Shown piece by piece: positions 208 through 13,095 of a DNA stretch of 38,289 nucleotides (the first letter of the stretch is position 1; every line of letters starts with the position of its first letter). The position numbers and the translations under genes are program-made. The stretch is taken from positions 1 through 38,289 of the forward strand of contig JAAYWN010000043.1 of NCBI GenBank assembly GCA_012516665.1, written 5' to 3'. The stretch comes from Erysipelotrichaceae bacterium (GTDB lineage Bacteria > Bacillota_I > Bacilli_A > Erysipelotrichales > Erysipelotrichaceae). The notes beneath the pieces are model-generated. The model worked only from the letters and a program-made list of their open reading frames with translations, did no database searches and had not been told where the DNA came from.

Positions 208-2295
208 CTATTTTTCTTCCTGTTTTCTTTTTTCTTTTGCTTCTGCGATGACTTTATCAGCCACTTCCTTCGGTGCTGCCTGGTAACGGTCAAAAGTAAT
301 GATATAAGACCCTCGACCTTGCGTCATAGCCCGAAGCTCATTCTGATATGTCTGCATTTCAGCCATCGGTGCTTCCGCATTGATCACCTGATCGCCGTCC
401 TCATCTGTCGTCATATCATTGATCAGTCCGCGTCTCTTGGTAAAGTCGCCCATGATTGCGCCCGTATACTCTTCCGGTGCCGTCACGACGATCTTCCCAA
501 TCGGTTCCAGAAGAACGGGATCAGCCTTCGGCATCGCCGCAACATAGGCAAGTCTGGCTGCTTCCTTGAACGCAACTTCTTTTGAATCTACCGGATGATA
601 GGAGCCATCATACAGTGTTGCTTTGACGCCGACCACTTTGAAGCCTGCTAACGGGCCCTTCTTCATGCATTCTCTCAAGCCTTGTTCTGTCGGTGGGAAG
701 TACTGCTTTGGCACTGCGCCGCCGAATACTTCTTCCGCAAATACCATATCTCCATCTGGGTCATCGCTCGGTTCAAATCTGACCCATACATCGCCAAACT
801 GACCGGCACCGCCATTCTGTTTCTTATAACGTCCCTGTGCTTCTGCTTTGCCGCGGATCGTTTCACGGTACTGCACGGTCGGCAATGCAGAAGTTACTTC
901 CACTTTGTACTTTGCCTTCAGTTTATCCAGGATCAGATTGATGTGCTGATCCCCGATGCCATACAGGATCTGTTCATGTGTTTCATCATTATTGACAAAA
1001 CGTATCGTGCCGTCTTCCTGCATCAAATTGCGGATACCGACCGACATCTTATCTTCATCTGCTTTTGTCTTAGGCCGGATTGCATACCCCAGCATCGGCT
1101 GCGGATATTCAATGTCCGGATAATGAACGACTCTGCTTCTAGTGCACAGCGTATCATTTGTCGAAGTGCTCTGCAGCTTGACAACTGCCCCAATATCACC
1201 AGTGAACAGCTTCCCCACGCCAATCTGATACTTGCCATTGATGACATAGATCTGAGAGATCTTTTCCATGACATCTTTTTTGGCATTATAGACCTGTGAA
1301 TCGCTGTTCAGCACCCCGCTCATGACCTTCAGGTAAGAGACTTTTCCAACAAATGGATCAATGACGGTCTTGAAGACAAAAGCACTTAAGGCTTCTTCTT
1401 CATTGGTCTCCATATCCAAGGTCTCATTCTTTGCATTCAGGGCATGGACATGTCCCTTCTCGGCATAGCTTGGGAAGAATTCTGTGATCAGATCCAGCAG
1501 TCTTTCAATACCGGTCTGCTTTTCGGCTGACCCGCAGTAAACAGGATGGATATCTCCATCACGGACACCGATACGCAGGCCTTTCGCTATCTCATGTTCA
1601 TCAAATTCTTCACCGTTGGAGTATTTTTCAAGCAGTTCATCATCGGTCATAGCGATAGCTTCAGCAATTTCGCTGTAATACTCATCGACCTTTGGTTTGA
1701 TGGCATCCGGCACTTCCTGCGGAACACCTGGCTTATCGTAGTACCAAGCCTTATGGCGAAGGATATTGACAGAGCCAATGACTTTTCTCCCGTCAATGAT
1801 CGGCAGTTCAAATAAGAAGACGGATTTTCCGAATTTTTTTCGCAGATCATCCACGGTCTGCGAGAAATCTGCATTTTCATCATCCAATTTATTCACAAAG
1901 AAGATCGTTGGAAGCTTCTGTTTTTTTACAGCATTCTTCCACGCTCTTTCAGTTCCCGCTTCTGCACCGTCTTTAGCAGATACAACGATCAGCGCATTGT
2001 CCCCGACCATCAGGCCGGTCGCTTCTTCACCGACATAATCCATATATCCCGGCACATCAATAAAGTTTATCTTTTTATTCTGCCATTCCACCGGAGCCAA
2101 ATGACAGTAGACAGAAGCCCTGCGCTTTCCTTCTTCGGTATCATAGTTCAATGCTGTCGTACCGTCATTATTCGCACCGTATTTATCGATCTGATGAGTT
2201 GTATACAGGCAGGCCTCGATCAAAGAGCTCTTCCCGGCACCGGAGTGTCCCAATACCACGACATTCCGCACTTCATTTGCAAGATAGTCTCTCAT
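208..2295 (-). CDS. Elongation factor G-like translational GTPase (EF-G paralog)
   Basis: 695-aa ORF with P-loop GHSGAGKSS, NKLD motif and EF-G-like C-terminal domains (GRYKKQNGGAGQFGDVWVRFEP; GKIVVTAPEEYTGAIMGDFTKRRG). Confidence 0.9.
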   Translation of the reverse strand: MRDYLANEVRNVVVLGHSGAGKSSLIEACLYTTHQIDKYGANNDGTTALNYDTEEGKRRASVYCHLAPVEWQNKKINFIDVPGYMDYVGEEATGLMVGDNALIVVSAKDGAEAGTERAWKNAVKKQKLPTIFFVNKLDDENADFSQTVDDLRKKFGKSVFLFELPIIDGRKVIGSVNILRHKAWYYDKPGVPQEVPDAIKPKVDEYYSEIAEAIAMTDDELLEKYSNGEEFDEHEIAKGLRIGVRDGDIHPVYCGSAEKQTGIERLLDLITEFFPSYAEKGHVHALNAKNETLDMETNEEEALSAFVFKTVIDPFVGKVSYLKVMSGVLNSDSQVYNAKKDVMEKISQIYVINGKYQIGVGKLFTGDIGAVVKLQSTSTNDTLCTRSRVVHYPDIEYPQPMLGYAIRPKTKADEDKMSVGIRNLMQEDGTIRFVNNDETHEQILYGIGDQHINLILDKLKAKYKVEVTSALPTVQYRETIRGKAEAQGRYKKQNGGAGQFGDVWVRFEPSDDPDGDMVFAEEVFGGAVPKQYFPPTEQGLRECMKKGPLAGFKVVGVKATLYDGSYHPVDSKEVAFKEAARLAYVAAMPKADPVLLEPIGKIVVTAPEEYTGAIMGDFTKRRGLINDMTTDEDGDQVINAEAPMAEMQTYQNELRAMTQGRGSYIITFDRYQAAPKEVADKVIAEAKEKRKQEEK

Positions 2296-6623: not shown

Positions 6624-6911
6624 TTATGCTTCTTTATGCTCTGCAAGATACTGACGGATCTTTTCTTTTGCATCTGGTTTGCTAGGTGCACATTGGTCGA
6701 TCTTGCAATCACCAGATACCAATTTTGCAGCCATGCCAGCGCATCCTGGATTGCCGCATCCGCCGCAGTTGTATCCTGGCAGCATGCCGAGGATATCCTG
6801 CACTCTATTGTCTTCCTTGACATAGAATTTCTTTGATGCAAATCCAAGCACTGCCCCCAATACAGCTCCTAATATCAGCATCAGTAATAATGCCTTAATG
6901 ATTACCATCAT
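6624..6911 (-). CDS. rnfB: RnfB-like subunit reduced to the N-terminal TM plus [4Fe-4S] module
   Basis: 95 aa: TM, ASKKFYVKEDNRVQDILGMLPGYNCGGCGNPGCAGMAAKLVSGDCKIDQCAP; stop at 6624 followed by a terminator; no ferredoxin CxxCxxCxxxCP motifs. Confidence 0.88.
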   Translation of the reverse strand: MMVIIKALLLMLILGAVLGAVLGFASKKFYVKEDNRVQDILGMLPGYNCGGCGNPGCAGMAAKLVSGDCKIDQCAPSKPDAKEKIRQYLAEHKEA

Positions 6912-7089
6912 CTTCCTCTTTTCTTATTGGTTTCATTCTTGACGTACAGTCTGACATGCCACAGCTCCCACAGTCCGGTGTAAGATTTTCACAGCCCTTT
7001 GGTACAGGCGTATGTTTGTTCTTTCGAAAGAGAAATACATTCAGAAGGAACAGGCCTGCCACAAGTACGATCGCAATTAAAACTTTCAT
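6895..7089 (-). CDS. Small one-TM Cys-rich protein in the rnf operon (putative Fe-S protein)
   Basis: 64 aa: TM MKVLIAIVLVAGLFLLNVFLF then CENLTPDCGSCGMSDCTSRM; 17-nt overlap with rnfB start, 3-nt gap from rnfA stop. Confidence 0.8.
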   Translation of the reverse strand: MKVLIAIVLVAGLFLLNVFLFRKNKHTPVPKGCENLTPDCGSCGMSDCTSRMKPIRKEEDDGNH

Positions 7090-7092
7090 TGT

Positions 7093-7668
7093 TTATCCAA
7101 CCAGGCCCGCAAGAGAAGAGAAGGCAATTGCCATAATGCCTGCAACAACAAAGGCAATTGGGTTTCCCTTGAATGGCTTAGGAATATCACTGCCCTGAAG
7201 TCTTTCACGGATCGTAGCAAAGATGACCAGCATCAGCATAAATCCTGCTGGGGTTGCAATGGAATTGACCATTGTCTGGAAGATATCATAATTCTTTGTG
7301 ATGTTTTCCTGTGCAACATACAGAACTGTACAGTTGGTCGTGATCAATGGAAGATAAATACCAAGCTGACGATACAGTCCTGGAGAATACTTCTTTAAGA
7401 ATAATTCAACGAACTGAACAAACGCTGCGATCAGCAGAATGAAGGTGATCAGTTCCATATACTCCAGCTGAAGCGGTACCAATACAAAGTAATATAAGCA
7501 CCAAGACAGCACCGAAGCACCGAAGATAACGAAGATAACAGCTGCGCCCATGCCGACAGCAGAATCCAGCTTGGTGGATACGCCCATGAATGGGCACATG
7601 CCTAAGAACTTGGTCAAGACAATGTTATTGATCAGCATTGCGCTGATGAATAAGGCAAATAAATTCAT
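7093..7668 (-). CDS. rnfA: Rnf complex subunit RnfA
   Basis: 191 aa; NNIVLTKFLGMCPFMGVSTKLDSAVGMG and LPLITTNCTVLYVA motifs. Confidence 0.96.
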   Translation of the reverse strand: MNLFALFISAMLINNIVLTKFLGMCPFMGVSTKLDSAVGMGAAVIFVIFGASVLSWCLYYFVLVPLQLEYMELITFILLIAAFVQFVELFLKKYSPGLYRQLGIYLPLITTNCTVLYVAQENITKNYDIFQTMVNSIATPAGFMLMLVIFATIRERLQGSDIPKPFKGNPIAFVVAGIMAIAFSSLAGLVG

Positions 7669-7670
7669 AC

Positions 7671-8333
7671 TTACTTAACCTCCTTCTTTGCGGACTTCTG
7701 AGCAACGCTCTCTTTATAGACCGCAACAGCTGCAGCTAAGCAGGCAAAAGTGAAGAAAGCGCCCGTTTCGCCGGTCATGAATGGAATCGTATAAGATTCC
7801 GGAATAATGCGCCATGAGAAAATGACCGCATTGGTAAATGGATTTGCTAAAGACAGAACACCAGTGCCTATGATCTGACGGATCAGGGACATGCACAGAA
7901 GAGAGCATGTATAGGCTAGGCCCATCTGCAGACCATCCAGTGCGGATTCTCCGACACTGTGATTGCAGGCAAAAGCCTCTGCTCTTCCCAAGATGATGCA
8001 GTTGACAACGATCAGAGATAGGAATGCACCCAATGCTGTATACAGATCAGGTGTATATGCATGCATGAACATTTCCAGAATTGTTACCAGTGTAGCAATG
8101 ACAACAATATAAACTGGAATATGAATGTCATCCGGTGTGATCTTGGCGATCATTGAGATAACGATATTTGAAAGCACTAAGACTACGATAACACCTACGC
8201 CCATGCCGATAGCATTGTTAACAGATGTAGAAATTGCCAGCGTAGAGCAGATGCCCAGATACAGTCCGAAGACTGGATTCTCAGTGATCAGCTTTGAGAA
8301 AAAGCTTGGTTTCTTTTCATTGTTTTCGCTCAT
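7671..8333 (-). CDS. rnfE: Rnf complex subunit RnfE
   Basis: 220 aa; NPVFGLYLGICSTLAISTSVNNAIGMG and LIVVNCIILGRAEAFA motifs. Confidence 0.96.
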   Translation of the reverse strand: MSENNEKKPSFFSKLITENPVFGLYLGICSTLAISTSVNNAIGMGVGVIVVLVLSNIVISMIAKITPDDIHIPVYIVVIATLVTILEMFMHAYTPDLYTALGAFLSLIVVNCIILGRAEAFACNHSVGESALDGLQMGLAYTCSLLCMSLIRQIIGTGVLSLANPFTNAVIFSWRIIPESYTIPFMTGETGAFFTFACLAAAVAVYKESVAQKSAKKEVK

Positions 8334-8345
8334 AAGTGACCTCCT

Positions 8346-9299
8346 TTATTGCTGAGCCGCAGCTTTGAGAGCTGCTGCCGCCATGCCTTTTACGGCTTTT
8401 GAAGTAAATGTAGCGCCTGACATTGCATCAATGGATGAATCCAATGTTGCGCCATTGAAGACAGAAGCATCAGAATACCATGCATCTCCCATGCCATCGC
8501 CATTGTCTTTGCCAGTCAGACCTGTGATAGAAGTGATTGCGCCATCCTTGACAAGGACCGTAGCTGTTACTTCTGCACTTTCGAATCCTGTTGCATGGCA
8601 TGCAAAGGCACCGGAAGATGTTGCTGTACAGGATGCTTTCGCACTGGAGTAATCTCCTGTACCAAGCGTATCAGATACTTTTGTACCGGAGGATGCTGAA
8701 GCACTTGAAGTAGCACCGCTGTTAGTGGTTGCTCCGCTTGTTGCAGCAGAAGAAGCCTGAGAAGCAGGTTCGCCCGAGATATTAGCAATCGAATTGAAGA
8801 TTGATTCAGCCTGCTTGACAGCAGCCCCGACAGCACTTGTTGTGATGGTAGCCCCTGAGATCAAAGGCATTGCATCCAAAGAAGTAAGTTTTTTCACTTG
8901 GTCAGCATAGTCCTGATCAAAAGCCAATGATCCTTTGCCGGAAGTCTCCTGCTGTTCAAGAGCCATATATCCTGCAATTGTTCCATCATTGTTGAAGGCA
9001 ATGGCAAACTTGAAACCGGAAGAACTGTATCCTGTATTATGGAGCGTAAAGATGTAGCCTTTTCCTTCTGCTTCATAGATACCATCTACAAGATCTGTAT
9101 CCTTAGTAACATACTTGGATGTCACATCCGTGAAAGAAGCATCCGGATAGAATTGATTCAATGTTGTTTTTACAGCTGCAAGTGCATTGTCTGTAATGAT
9201 CGGCTTTGTTACTGCATTGACTGCAGCTAAGCATGCGCCAGCCACAGAACATACAACAGCTAAGAGGATCGTTTTATACATACTGGAATTTTTATCCAT
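8346..9299 (-). CDS. rnfG: RnfG-like subunit with two FMN-binding domains
   Basis: Start set to MDKNSS (9299), preceded by SD GAGGAGG. N-terminal RnfG domain with LISGATITTSAV; Ser/Ala/Thr linker; second FMN_bind domain with DAMSGATFTSKAV. Confidence 0.93.
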   Translation of the reverse strand: MDKNSSMYKTILLAVVCSVAGACLAAVNAVTKPIITDNALAAVKTTLNQFYPDASFTDVTSKYVTKDTDLVDGIYEAEGKGYIFTLHNTGYSSSGFKFAIAFNNDGTIAGYMALEQQETSGKGSLAFDQDYADQVKKLTSLDAMPLISGATITTSAVGAAVKQAESIFNSIANISGEPASQASSAATSGATTNSGATSSASASSGTKVSDTLGTGDYSSAKASCTATSSGAFACHATGFESAEVTATVLVKDGAITSITGLTGKDNGDGMGDAWYSDASVFNGATLDSSIDAMSGATFTSKAVKGMAAAALKAAAQQ

Positions 9300-9313
9300 A
9301 TTCAGTATCCTCC

Positions 9314-10447
9314 TCACATTTCACTGACAGATATGTCAGTGATCTCCGCTGCTGTATTCTCTCTTGCAGCAGATGCCGTTGAAGATGTCTTAGGAGCAAG
9401 CATCGAGCCGACAAAGAAAGCAGTCACAATAGCAATAGCAGAAATGATAACTGCCCGCTTCATAAACGTTGAAGCATTCTTGATCTGATTGCCAGAGAAT
9501 GCCTTATCAATTGCCGGTGTCAGCATATTCATTAATAAGATAGAGAATAAGACACCATCTGGAAGATTGCTCCGCCAGCGGATGACCAGAGTCAGGCAGG
9601 CTGTGCAGATACCAAAGACAACTCTGCCGCCAATGGTAACCGGCGTTGATACAGGATCTGTCATCATAAAGACAGCTCCGAACAGGACACCGCCGCTGAT
9701 AACGTTGAATAGACCGTATTCAAAGCCCGCGCCCTTCATCAGTCCAACAATTCCAGAAATAACAAATATTGTTACAACATAGCTGACACTGAGATGCCAA
9801 TCAATATCCTTCTTCCATAATAGGTAGAGAAAGCATAAGATCAGCAGCAATGCACAGCTTCCGCCGATGACGGATGCATAATTCCCCAAGAAGAAGCTCT
9901 TGAGGCCGCCAAACTGATTCAGGAAAGCACTGAAGGCACTTGAATCCATGATCCAGCCTGTGGACTTGATCGTTGTAACAGGTGTTGCACCAGTCGAAAT
10001 ATCCGATGCAACAGATGCACTGAAGGAATTCATGATCAATGCTTCGCCGAAAGCCGCTGGGTTGAAGATATTCTGGCCAAAGCCGCCGAACACCATCTTA
10101 CCAAAGACAATGGCGACGATCACGGCAACGATGACAGCGTAATAACTGACTTCCAAGCGAGTGATCAGAACTAAGATCAAAGCAGTTACCCAGCCATAGG
10201 AATGGAAGATCTCTTTCCAATCCTTGCCCGTCGCCTTGAACCAGATGATCTCTGTGACCTCGGCCGCGATGACCGCGAACAGAGCCATTAAGAATACTCT
10301 CAAGCCATACATTGCACCATAGGATACACTGTACCAAACAATCGAGAACAGCAGAACTGCCAGCAGGCAGAACGTGACGTCCCACATGATTCCAGTTGTG
10401 CTCTGTTCAGAACGATAGTTCGGGGATGGTCTGTATGAAATTTTCAT
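9314..10447 (-). CDS. rnfD: Rnf complex subunit RnfD
   Basis: 377 aa; polytopic; GFGQNIFNPAAFGEA and flavinylation-type DISTGATPVTT. Confidence 0.95.
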   Translation of the reverse strand: MKISYRPSPNYRSEQSTTGIMWDVTFCLLAVLLFSIVWYSVSYGAMYGLRVFLMALFAVIAAEVTEIIWFKATGKDWKEIFHSYGWVTALILVLITRLEVSYYAVIVAVIVAIVFGKMVFGGFGQNIFNPAAFGEALIMNSFSASVASDISTGATPVTTIKSTGWIMDSSAFSAFLNQFGGLKSFFLGNYASVIGGSCALLLILCFLYLLWKKDIDWHLSVSYVVTIFVISGIVGLMKGAGFEYGLFNVISGGVLFGAVFMMTDPVSTPVTIGGRVVFGICTACLTLVIRWRSNLPDGVLFSILLMNMLTPAIDKAFSGNQIKNASTFMKRAVIISAIAIVTAFFVGSMLAPKTSSTASAARENTAAEITDISVSEM

Positions 10448-10449
10448 GT

Positions 10450-11769
10450 TTATCTTCCTCCCTTTGCTTTCTTATCCTTCTGCATCTGCAGCTGAATGAG
10501 CCTCTTGCCTTTGCGGACATTCTCTGTAACATCGATCTTTGAAGGACATACATACGTGCATAAACCGCACTCAATGCAGTCCATAACAGATAATTTAGCC
10601 AAAGCATCCTTATCCATTTTCTTTGCAGCTGCCGCAATATTGACTGGCTCCAGGCCAGAAGGACAATGTTCTGTGCATTTCCCGCAGCGCAAGCATGCAA
10701 CACTGTCAATTGGTTCATTTTTCAGGACCGTCAGGCCATTATTCTGCGGACAGATCACAAAAGTATCATTTGGAATTGCTTTGCCCATCATCGGTCCGCC
10801 GGCAATCACCAGAACATCATCAACACCGTCAGCATATCCGCCGACTGCTTCAATGACTTCGTGAGCAGGTGTTCCAATCGGCACAATAATATTCTGCGGC
10901 TGCTTCAGAGCATTGCCTGAAACGGTCAGCACCTTATGAATGATCGGCATGCCATTGATGATCGCATCGCCTAAAGCAATAGCGGTCGAAGCATTGTTCA
11001 GCACGCATCCTGCTTCCATCGGAAGTCTGTCATAGCGCTTCCCTGTCAGTTCATAGACCAGCACACGCTCCCAGCCCATTGGGTACTTATCCGGTACTGT
11101 ACGGATCTCGATCGGTGTACCGCTGAAGGCAGTCTGCAGTGCAGAAATCTGGTCCTTCTTATCTTCCTTGATTGCAATGCATCCCTTCTCTGCTTTTGAA
11201 AGTTTGAACAGAGCAAGTACACCTGTTTTCAATAAGGATAAGTTGGCTTCAATATTCTTGTAGTCAGAAGTCAAATAAGGTTCGCATTCCACTGCATTGA
11301 CAATGAATAGTTTTACATTCTCCGGCTTCATATACTTGACATAGGTAGGGAAGCCTGCCCCGCCAAGTCCTAACATTCCTGCGTTCTTTACGAAATCCAG
11401 CAGTTCCTGCCAGCTGGCTTTTTCATAATCAAACTCCGCAAAAGCACGCACAGCTGTGTTCTTGTGGTCATTCTGGATTCTTAAATGTTCACCCTGCGTC
11501 ATGCCAGAAGTCATGAATTTCTCAATGCCGGTAACTGTTCCAGATACTGGCGAGAAGATAGGCAGGTAAAAGTGGTCGTTTCTTTCTGCGACCTTTGTAC
11601 CGATCGAAACTTCATCTCCAACTTTCACACACGGTGTGCATGCAGCGTTTCCGTTATATAACGGCACCCATACCACATCCGGATCCATTGACTTCAGGAC
11701 TTCTTTGCCCAGCGTCAGATCCTTATGCCCATTGAGATGTTCATTCATCGGTCCCTGTAAAAATGACAT
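10450..11769 (-). CDS. rnfC: Rnf complex subunit RnfC
   Basis: Start set to MSFLQG (11769) after SD GGGAGGAG; GLGGAGFPTYVKY; two Fe-S motifs CLRCGKCTEHCP and CIECGLCTYVCP. Confidence 0.96.
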   Translation of the reverse strand: MSFLQGPMNEHLNGHKDLTLGKEVLKSMDPDVVWVPLYNGNAACTPCVKVGDEVSIGTKVAERNDHFYLPIFSPVSGTVTGIEKFMTSGMTQGEHLRIQNDHKNTAVRAFAEFDYEKASWQELLDFVKNAGMLGLGGAGFPTYVKYMKPENVKLFIVNAVECEPYLTSDYKNIEANLSLLKTGVLALFKLSKAEKGCIAIKEDKKDQISALQTAFSGTPIEIRTVPDKYPMGWERVLVYELTGKRYDRLPMEAGCVLNNASTAIALGDAIINGMPIIHKVLTVSGNALKQPQNIIVPIGTPAHEVIEAVGGYADGVDDVLVIAGGPMMGKAIPNDTFVICPQNNGLTVLKNEPIDSVACLRCGKCTEHCPSGLEPVNIAAAAKKMDKDALAKLSVMDCIECGLCTYVCPSKIDVTENVRKGKRLIQLQMQKDKKAKGGR

Positions 11770-11944
11770 ATGGTCTCCTCCCATCAAAACAGAGTGAATT
11801 ATAGCATCTTTTTCTTTATTTATGCAGTTTCTTAATCAGTTTACCAACAATTGACTTGGCAATTCTGCTTCTTTGTATTATTTCTTTGAATATTTCATCA
11901 ATTGTTCAGGTGAGCAGATGTTAGGCACTTTGTTGAAGTTCTGC

Positions 11945-11958: not shown

Positions 11959-13095
11959 ATGACAAAGAAAAACATATGCAAAATCGTACTGTCCGCCCTT
12001 CTGCTGACAGGCTGTTCCTCAAATGCGGCATCAGCCGCTTCAGCATCAACTTCCGCTGAAGCCTATAAGAATACAAATCTTGATGCCGGTATCTTTGATA
12101 CAACTTATGCGTACCAGGAAGCTCCAAAAACAGATGAAAGCGCAGCGCACTATCAGAGCTCTTTAACAGAATTGAAAGAATACAGCGATCTCTATGATAT
12201 CTACAACAATTATGACGGTATCAATAATCTGAAGACGATCAATGACAATGCCGGCATTCAGCCAGTAAAGGTCGATCAGAAGATCATAGATATGCTGAAA
12301 CTGGCCAAACAATTCTATGTCTATTCGGATGGTGAATTTGATATCACGATGGGCGCCGTCCTGAAGATATGGCATACCTACCGTGAAAGCGGCATCAAGC
12401 TGAATGAGCAGGGACAGAATGCCCCTATTCCATCCCAGGAAGAATTGGATGCAGTAAAGTCAGAGAGCGGCTGGGACAAAGTCATCATCGATGAAGATGC
12501 CAGCACCGTCTATATCACAGATGCTGCTGTTTCCTTAGATGTCGGCGGCATTGCCAAAGGCTATGCCACAGAACAGGTCGCAGCGGATCTTGAAAAGCAG
12601 GATATCAGCGGCGGCTATGTCAACGTCGGACGGAACATCCGTCTGCTTGGGGCAAAAGCCGATGGTTCGCAATGGCGCATCGGCATTACCAATCCAGGCA
12701 GTTCCACCGGAGATTCCTTAGTGGCTCTGGATGTAGAACCATCCTATTCCGTAGTCACTTCAGGCGATTATGAACGGTATTACACAGGGACCGACGGCAA
12801 TCGATATTCACATATTATTGATCCGCAGACCCTCTTTCCTGCCACCTACTATCACAGTGTAACGATCATCGCAGATGATTCCGGTGTTGCTGACTGTCTC
12901 TCCACAACGCTTTTTACAATGAGCGTGGCTGATGGCAAAAAAGCACTGGCCGCTTATGAAGCAGCCTCGGGGAAAAAAGTTTCCGCCGTATGGATCATGG
13001 ATCCTGATAAGGCACAGAATGAGACCGGAAAAACAGAAGGAAGCTATTTTGTCACATATACTGATGACATCAAGGATGATCTGATATGGTATTGA
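11959..13095 (+). CDS. apbE: FAD:protein FMN transferase (ApbE lipoprotein)
   Basis: Lipobox LLLTGCSS; SLDVGGIAKGYATEQVAADL; YVNVGRNIRLLG; SVVTSGDYERYY; HIIDPQT. Confidence 0.94.
   Translation: MTKKNICKIVLSALLLTGCSSNAASAASASTSAEAYKNTNLDAGIFDTTYAYQEAPKTDESAAHYQSSLTELKEYSDLYDIYNNYDGINNLKTINDNAGIQPVKVDQKIIDMLKLAKQFYVYSDGEFDITMGAVLKIWHTYRESGIKLNEQGQNAPIPSQEELDAVKSESGWDKVIIDEDASTVYITDAAVSLDVGGIAKGYATEQVAADLEKQDISGGYVNVGRNIRLLGAKADGSQWRIGITNPGSSTGDSLVALDVEPSYSVVTSGDYERYYTGTDGNRYSHIIDPQTLFPATYYHSVTIIADDSGVADCLSTTLFTMSVADGKKALAAYEAASGKKVSAVWIMDPDKAQNETGKTEGSYFVTYTDDIKDDLIWY

Follow-up and report, generated by a model that had tools for sequence, protein, structure and literature searches.

The small open reading frame that lies between rnfA and rnfB in the Erysipelotrichaceae DNA analysed here (the whole stretch of 38,289 nucleotides, referred to as the window) encodes what is almost certainly an accessory protein dedicated to the RNF complex with short RnfB that is native to the class. 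This protein, called X in the following, represents a new RNF-dedicated small cysteine protein family attached to the minimal-RnfB variant of a known complex. Regarding its function, we tentatively favour a maturation factor over a subunit that relays electrons. X could be an NqrM-like protein which delivers iron or an Fe-S cluster to the [2Fe-2S] of RnfA/RnfE.

The window carries a complete rnf operon on the minus strand, running from 11787 down to 6624 in the order rnfC-rnfD-rnfG-rnfE-rnfA-X-rnfB, with apbE divergent from it. The genes are:

11959-13095, plus strand: apbE, flavin transferase (PF02424, 1.9e-68), divergent from rnfC
10450-11787, minus strand: rnfC (TIGR01945, 360.9 bits)
9314-10447, minus strand: rnfD, by profile search
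8346-9317, minus strand: rnfG, with two FMN_bind stretches
7671-8333, minus strand: rnfE, by profile search
7093-7668, minus strand: rnfA (TIGR01943, 243.6 bits, above the cut-off)
6895-7089, minus strand: ORF X, for which we propose the name RnfX (RnfM should the maturation reading prove right), 64 residues, one membrane helix and a cysteine cluster
6624-6911, minus strand: short rnfB, 95 residues, a membrane helix and one PF04060 Fe-S domain (1.6e-11), without the C-terminal ferredoxin domains

ApbE is the known flavin-attaching maturation factor of RNF and NQR. The RnfG protein (323 residues) contains two SGAT motifs in addition to its two FMN_bind stretches and thus may bear two covalent flavins; multi-flavinylated RnfG is known (PMC8238504). 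The end of apbE is overlapped by the adjoining gene for an ArsP_2-type putative heavy-metal transporter (PF11449; 13086-13928, plus strand). Elsewhere in the window an elongation-factor-G-like protein of 695 residues with all EF-G domains (208-2295, minus strand) is followed by a 222-residue ankyrin-repeat protein (2306-2974).

The initial annotation had described a 64-residue cysteine protein with a single transmembrane helix between rnfA and rnfB. Both the locus and the translation of 6895-7089 on the minus strand, MKVLIAIVLVAGLFLLNVFLFRKNKHTPVPKGCENLTPDCGSCGMSDCTSRMKPIRKEEDDGNH*, which is identical to the one described earlier, bear this out. The parts of X are:

7018-7086, minus strand: membrane helix, codons 2-24, ending at the invariant Asn24 (AlphaFold2 helix 2-24, pLDDT about 95)
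6946-6993, minus strand: cysteine region, with C33 at 6991-6993, C40 at 6970-6972, C43 at 6961-6963 and C48 at 6946-6948
6895-6911, minus strand: 17 nt shared by the reading frames of X and rnfB

The four cysteines are C-terminal to the helix and are spaced C33-x6-C40-x2-C43-x4-C48, with a basic stretch, NKHTPVPKG, between the helix and the cluster. The N-terminal helix is probably a membrane anchor, and the basic stretch which follows it suggests that the cysteine tail is cytoplasmic. In the AlphaFold2 model helix 2-24 is confident and the cysteine tail is without secondary structure (pTM 0.43). The 17-nt overlap of the X stop with the rnfB start, earlier taken to imply translational coupling, was found as described. 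Inspection of the sequence showed a Shine-Dalgarno-like GAGGA of rnfB within the last codons of X, just upstream of the ATG-ATG of rnfB, and this placement is consistent with coupling.

X is a real and conserved gene. A scan of the genome collection with RnfA gave 80 loci, comprising 70 readable loci of Erysipelotrichia, nine clostridial ones and one that ended too early. In 70/70 of the readable Erysipelotrichia loci X was found directly after rnfA, with a short rnfB directly next wherever the contig continues. N24, P30, G32, C33, C40, C43 and C48 were invariant in 56/56 aligned X proteins, and the pN/pS of X, from 16 related gene pairs taken together, was 0.15, so that X is under purifying selection. 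Synteny, invariant cysteines and this ratio together rule out a chance ORF. Lack of conservation of the cysteines across orthologs had been named beforehand as evidence that would count against the annotation; the cysteines were found to be conserved. In a wider alignment of X (A2) invariance is limited to N24, P30 and the C-x2-C-x4-C core and does not extend to C33. The last spacing of the core drifts to x2-x3 in family f12 (CxxCx2C, CxxCx3C), which has reduced genomes. The fourth cysteine of X may precede the core, follow it at a variable distance or be missing, and part of the family has only three cysteines. C33 is often lost, and a cysteine 10-21 residues downstream is then over-represented (6/12 against 9/116, Fisher p 6e-4, the sequences being related and not independent), which is a hint of a four-ligand cluster.

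Among the most constant features of X are its helix, Asn24 and the TPxP segment. This would suit a small subunit with a structural or stabilising role, whose helix packs on RnfA/RnfE or on RnfB while the cysteine tail binds zinc or nothing, with no part in iron or electron handling. Small RNF subunits free of cofactor do exist, for example RnfH of A. vinelandii (PMC12174285). Such a role is nevertheless improbable for X, as three cysteines are invariant in the widest alignment and are still present in the 35-40 residue versions of X found in reduced genomes, and as X also occurs in unlinked and shared copies.

The distribution of X was followed in 395 genomes from across the class, with a threshold for X of E 1e-3 or better. 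X was found in 172 of them, rnfA in 211 and both in 169; the Fisher p-value for this association takes no account of common ancestry. Thus X displays the genomic co-occurrence (169/172) as well as the operon linkage of an RNF-associated component. Three X genomes lack a listed rnfA; two of these are MAGs of 85-86% completeness, and in the third the contig bears rnfA-X-rnfB. Among Erysipelotrichales 32 of the 33 X genes adjoin rnfA, the place of rnfA for the 33rd not being among those listed. The 42 rnfA genomes initially without X consisted of 11 without RnfB, 7 with long-RnfB operons (one cut by a contig end) and 24 with a short RnfB, and the wider profile A2 finds X in 12 of these 24. Judged by position, a minimal X lies between rnfA and rnfB in five genome-reduced genomes of family f12 (e.g. 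MIGFVIVLLLFILTFILYRVNKTKEKCKGCDLCQL) and in G289, and in G285 an X truncated by the end of the contig adjoins rnfB and matches that of the genus-mate G148. A short RnfB, with the tandem-domain form counted in, was present in 62/80 genomes; X was detected by profile in 50 of these and by position in 7 more. The co-occurrence with short RnfB, for which a profile search had been suggested, is therefore borne out in 57/62 genomes. Neither profile nor position gave an X in the other five short-RnfB genomes, namely G095, G275, G302 and G387 (55-84% complete) and G315 (98%).

A search of 229 clostridial genomes gave no convincing X, with three sub-significant matches to the helix only; of the 82 RnfB frames listed for clostridial genomes, 81 have at least 249 aa. 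In each of the nine clostridial loci (from Lachnospiraceae, Vallitalea and relatives) rnfA is directly followed by a cysteine-rich rnfB of 263-269 aa, without X. Within the class, X stands unlinked among housekeeping genes in families f22 and f6, in much of f17 and in parts of f4 and f14, with a short-RnfB operon devoid of X elsewhere in the genome. In family f22 (L171-L176, L202-L204) it belongs to a conserved block, pgm-X-ung, between phosphoglucomutase-like and uracil-DNA-glycosylase-like genes, these neighbours being identified by eye. X can also be less numerous than short-RnfB operons or RnfB: one (unlinked) against two in G061, one against two in G093 and two against three in G071.

FeoB_associated (PF12669) was the only family matched by many X members (25/62, best 1.2e-4). 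Profile-profile comparison of A2 was carried out with hhalign against a null of 100 shuffles in which the helix is kept and the tail shuffled. PF12669 members ranked best (94%, 0/100 shuffles) in a short alignment dominated by the helix and the cysteines, the RnfB N-terminus ranked second (74%, 0/100), and NqrM (33%, 26/100) was not above chance. It could be argued from the PF12669 matches that X is a general ferrous-iron handling protein of that type which merely travels with rnf. This is very unlikely, as the window X scores 17.7 bits (E 0.0043) against a gathering score of 27 bits, a PF12669-like protein distinct from X is encoded in the same genome (G000:C108:9511-9633, 26.0 bits), and the presence of X tracks RNF and not iron uptake, even when X is unlinked. 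The published cysteine motif of PF12669, Cx3-5Cx2-3Cx6-8C (PMC8749426), differs from the C-x6-C-x2-C-x4-C of X. Homologs located mainly outside rnf operons, such as FeoB-associated proteins, had been foreseen as evidence against a link with RNF; X homologues were found in rnf operons or unlinked beside housekeeping genes, and not as neighbours of feoB. On the strength of the sub-threshold score, the separate protein and the RNF-dependent distribution, X was rejected as a plain FeoB_associated protein. In 16 genomes searched up to E 10, the PF04400 (NqrM) profile did not match X. This result and the profile comparison, for which NqrM sequences were taken from plasmid-collection records, are both negative and speak against X being an NqrM homologue. 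A solved-structure profile search with X returned chance matches only.

It had been proposed that X is a duplicated or paralogous RnfB subunit which compensates for the lost ferredoxin domains. The underlying alignment of CGSCGMSDC with CGGCGNPGC of the adjacent RnfB is literally correct but weak, since the BLASTP match covers only 12 residues with E 0.023 in a single comparison. X scores 13.6 bits with TIGR01944 against a cut-off of 68.7, a PF04060 domain search of X found no match, and X has only the first three cysteines of the RnfB pattern C-x2-C-x4-C-x16-C. Since the profile match to RnfB is in addition weaker than that to PF12669, the duplication was set aside.

Compensation could still operate through an electron-relay subunit, in which X with a small Fe-S cluster beside the short RnfB would accept electrons from ferredoxin or some other donor and pass them on to RnfB or RnfA/RnfE, thereby replacing the missing input domain of RnfB. 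In known complexes the C-terminal clusters of RnfB normally accept electrons from ferredoxin, with two to seven [4Fe-4S] in the reviewed structures (PMC12174285). In Erysipelotrichia X is always beside rnfB, and its four strictly invariant cysteines there would suit a real cluster equally well. The CxxCx4C spacing is that of the RnfB Fe-S motif, the resemblance to the RnfB N-terminus exceeds the shuffle null, a fourth cysteine is frequent upstream or downstream, and pyruvate:ferredoxin oxidoreductase is present in the genome of the window. Co-occurrence with short RnfB is near-perfect and X is absent with long RnfB. However, this correlation with RnfB length is confounded. In the RnfA tree the long-RnfB operons of family f2 fall inside Lachnospiraceae and those of f6 lie on a long separate branch, so the class has its long-RnfB operons from foreign RnfA lineages, and long RnfB without X was rejected as proof of compensation. 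X follows the native RNF lineage and not demonstrably the length of RnfB, and compensation is not supported by these data. From the same tree, the rnf operon of two same-order genomes (L191, L149; G049, G050) was apparently gained from Lachnospiraceae.

Further observations count against electron carrying. In family f9 (L179, L188, L190, L152) X is kept in operons whose RnfB, of 180-190 aa, has two PF04060-type Fe-S domains in tandem after a helix; the second of these domains shows the variant NCTTCG. Conversely, in one case, the clostridial G581 (L331 7588-7881, reverse complement), RnfB has independently been cut short behind its Fe-S domain, to 98 aa, and no X-like gene was seen beside this rnfB, which is directly followed by two long membrane-protein-like frames. 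The cysteine tail of X is not predicted to fold alone, part of the family has three cysteines only, and X may be unlinked and fewer than RnfB. Taken together, an electron-relay subunit is possible but doubtful.

The reading that we favour is that of a maturation factor. NqrM is reported to be needed to insert the intramembrane [2Fe-2S] of NqrD/NqrE in Na+-NQR, and the homologous site lies between RnfA and RnfE (PMC12174285). It could be that the invariant Asn at the end of the helix and the CxxCx4C core of X, usually with a fourth cysteine, bind iron or an Fe-S cluster at the membrane surface. X would then pass this iron or Fe-S on to RNF, the most likely recipient being the intramembrane [2Fe-2S] site common to RnfA and RnfE, and so might act like NqrM for Na+-NQR, though it is no recognisable NqrM homologue. 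That X can be fewer than RnfB is easier to reconcile with an assembly factor that is shared than with a stoichiometric subunit. The drift of the core spacing and the dispensable C33 are looser than is usual for an electron-transfer cluster. An unlinked, shared and loosely spaced protein suits assembly better than stoichiometric electron carrying. Cluster delivery accounts for the tandem-RnfB, unlinked, low-copy and truncated-RnfB facts at least as well as electron carrying does. The nearest profile of X is iron-associated (PMC8749426) and its layout is like that of NqrM. On the other side, there is no profile link between X and NqrM, and clostridial RNF with the same RnfA/RnfE cluster does without X. 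A fuller version, put forward with yet more reserve, is that X might be a class-specific, NqrM-analogous chaperone which inserts the RnfA/RnfE [2Fe-2S], independent of NqrM in origin, possibly derived from FeoB-associated iron proteins, and tied to the minimal RNF with just one Fe-S domain in RnfB.

We know of no established route by which RNF acquires its membrane-embedded [2Fe-2S]. A review names ApbE and NqrM for NQR and ApbE alone for RNF (PMC12174285). Within the limited range of papers searched, no literature naming RnfB together with Erysipelotrichia was found. A conserved RNF-dedicated cysteine protein across a class makes the acquisition of the RNF [2Fe-2S] testable in a cultured member that is non-pathogenic. 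X is also the mark of a minimal RNF with a single Fe-S domain in RnfB, where the structurally known RnfB has three or more clusters, so either the rules of electron input or the assembly of RNF differ here.

Several known systems can be compared with X. By its description, RnfH of the Azotobacter vinelandii RNF is likewise an additional lineage-specific small component of the complex, but it lacks a cofactor, and other complexes have no subunit homologous to it (PMC12174285), whereas X is cysteine-rich and probably membrane-anchored. FeoB_associated proteins share with X their size, a single N-terminal helix and a short cysteine cluster, and they are the nearest profile; X differs in its score below the gathering threshold, its cysteine pattern and its dependence on RNF. 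The N-terminal region of RnfB resembles X in having a helix followed by a cytoplasmic CxxCx4C and in a weak profile similarity, but it carries a fixed fourth ligand (C-x16-C) and a surrounding domain, and its sequence homology with X is limited to 12 residues. NqrM (PF04400, DUF539) has, like X, one helix, a basic turn, a first cysteine at position 33, a CxxC and usually one more cysteine. Cys33 is reportedly essential in NqrM, whereas the first cysteine of X, C33, is the least conserved across the class. NqrM is encoded with NQR, the sister complex of RNF.
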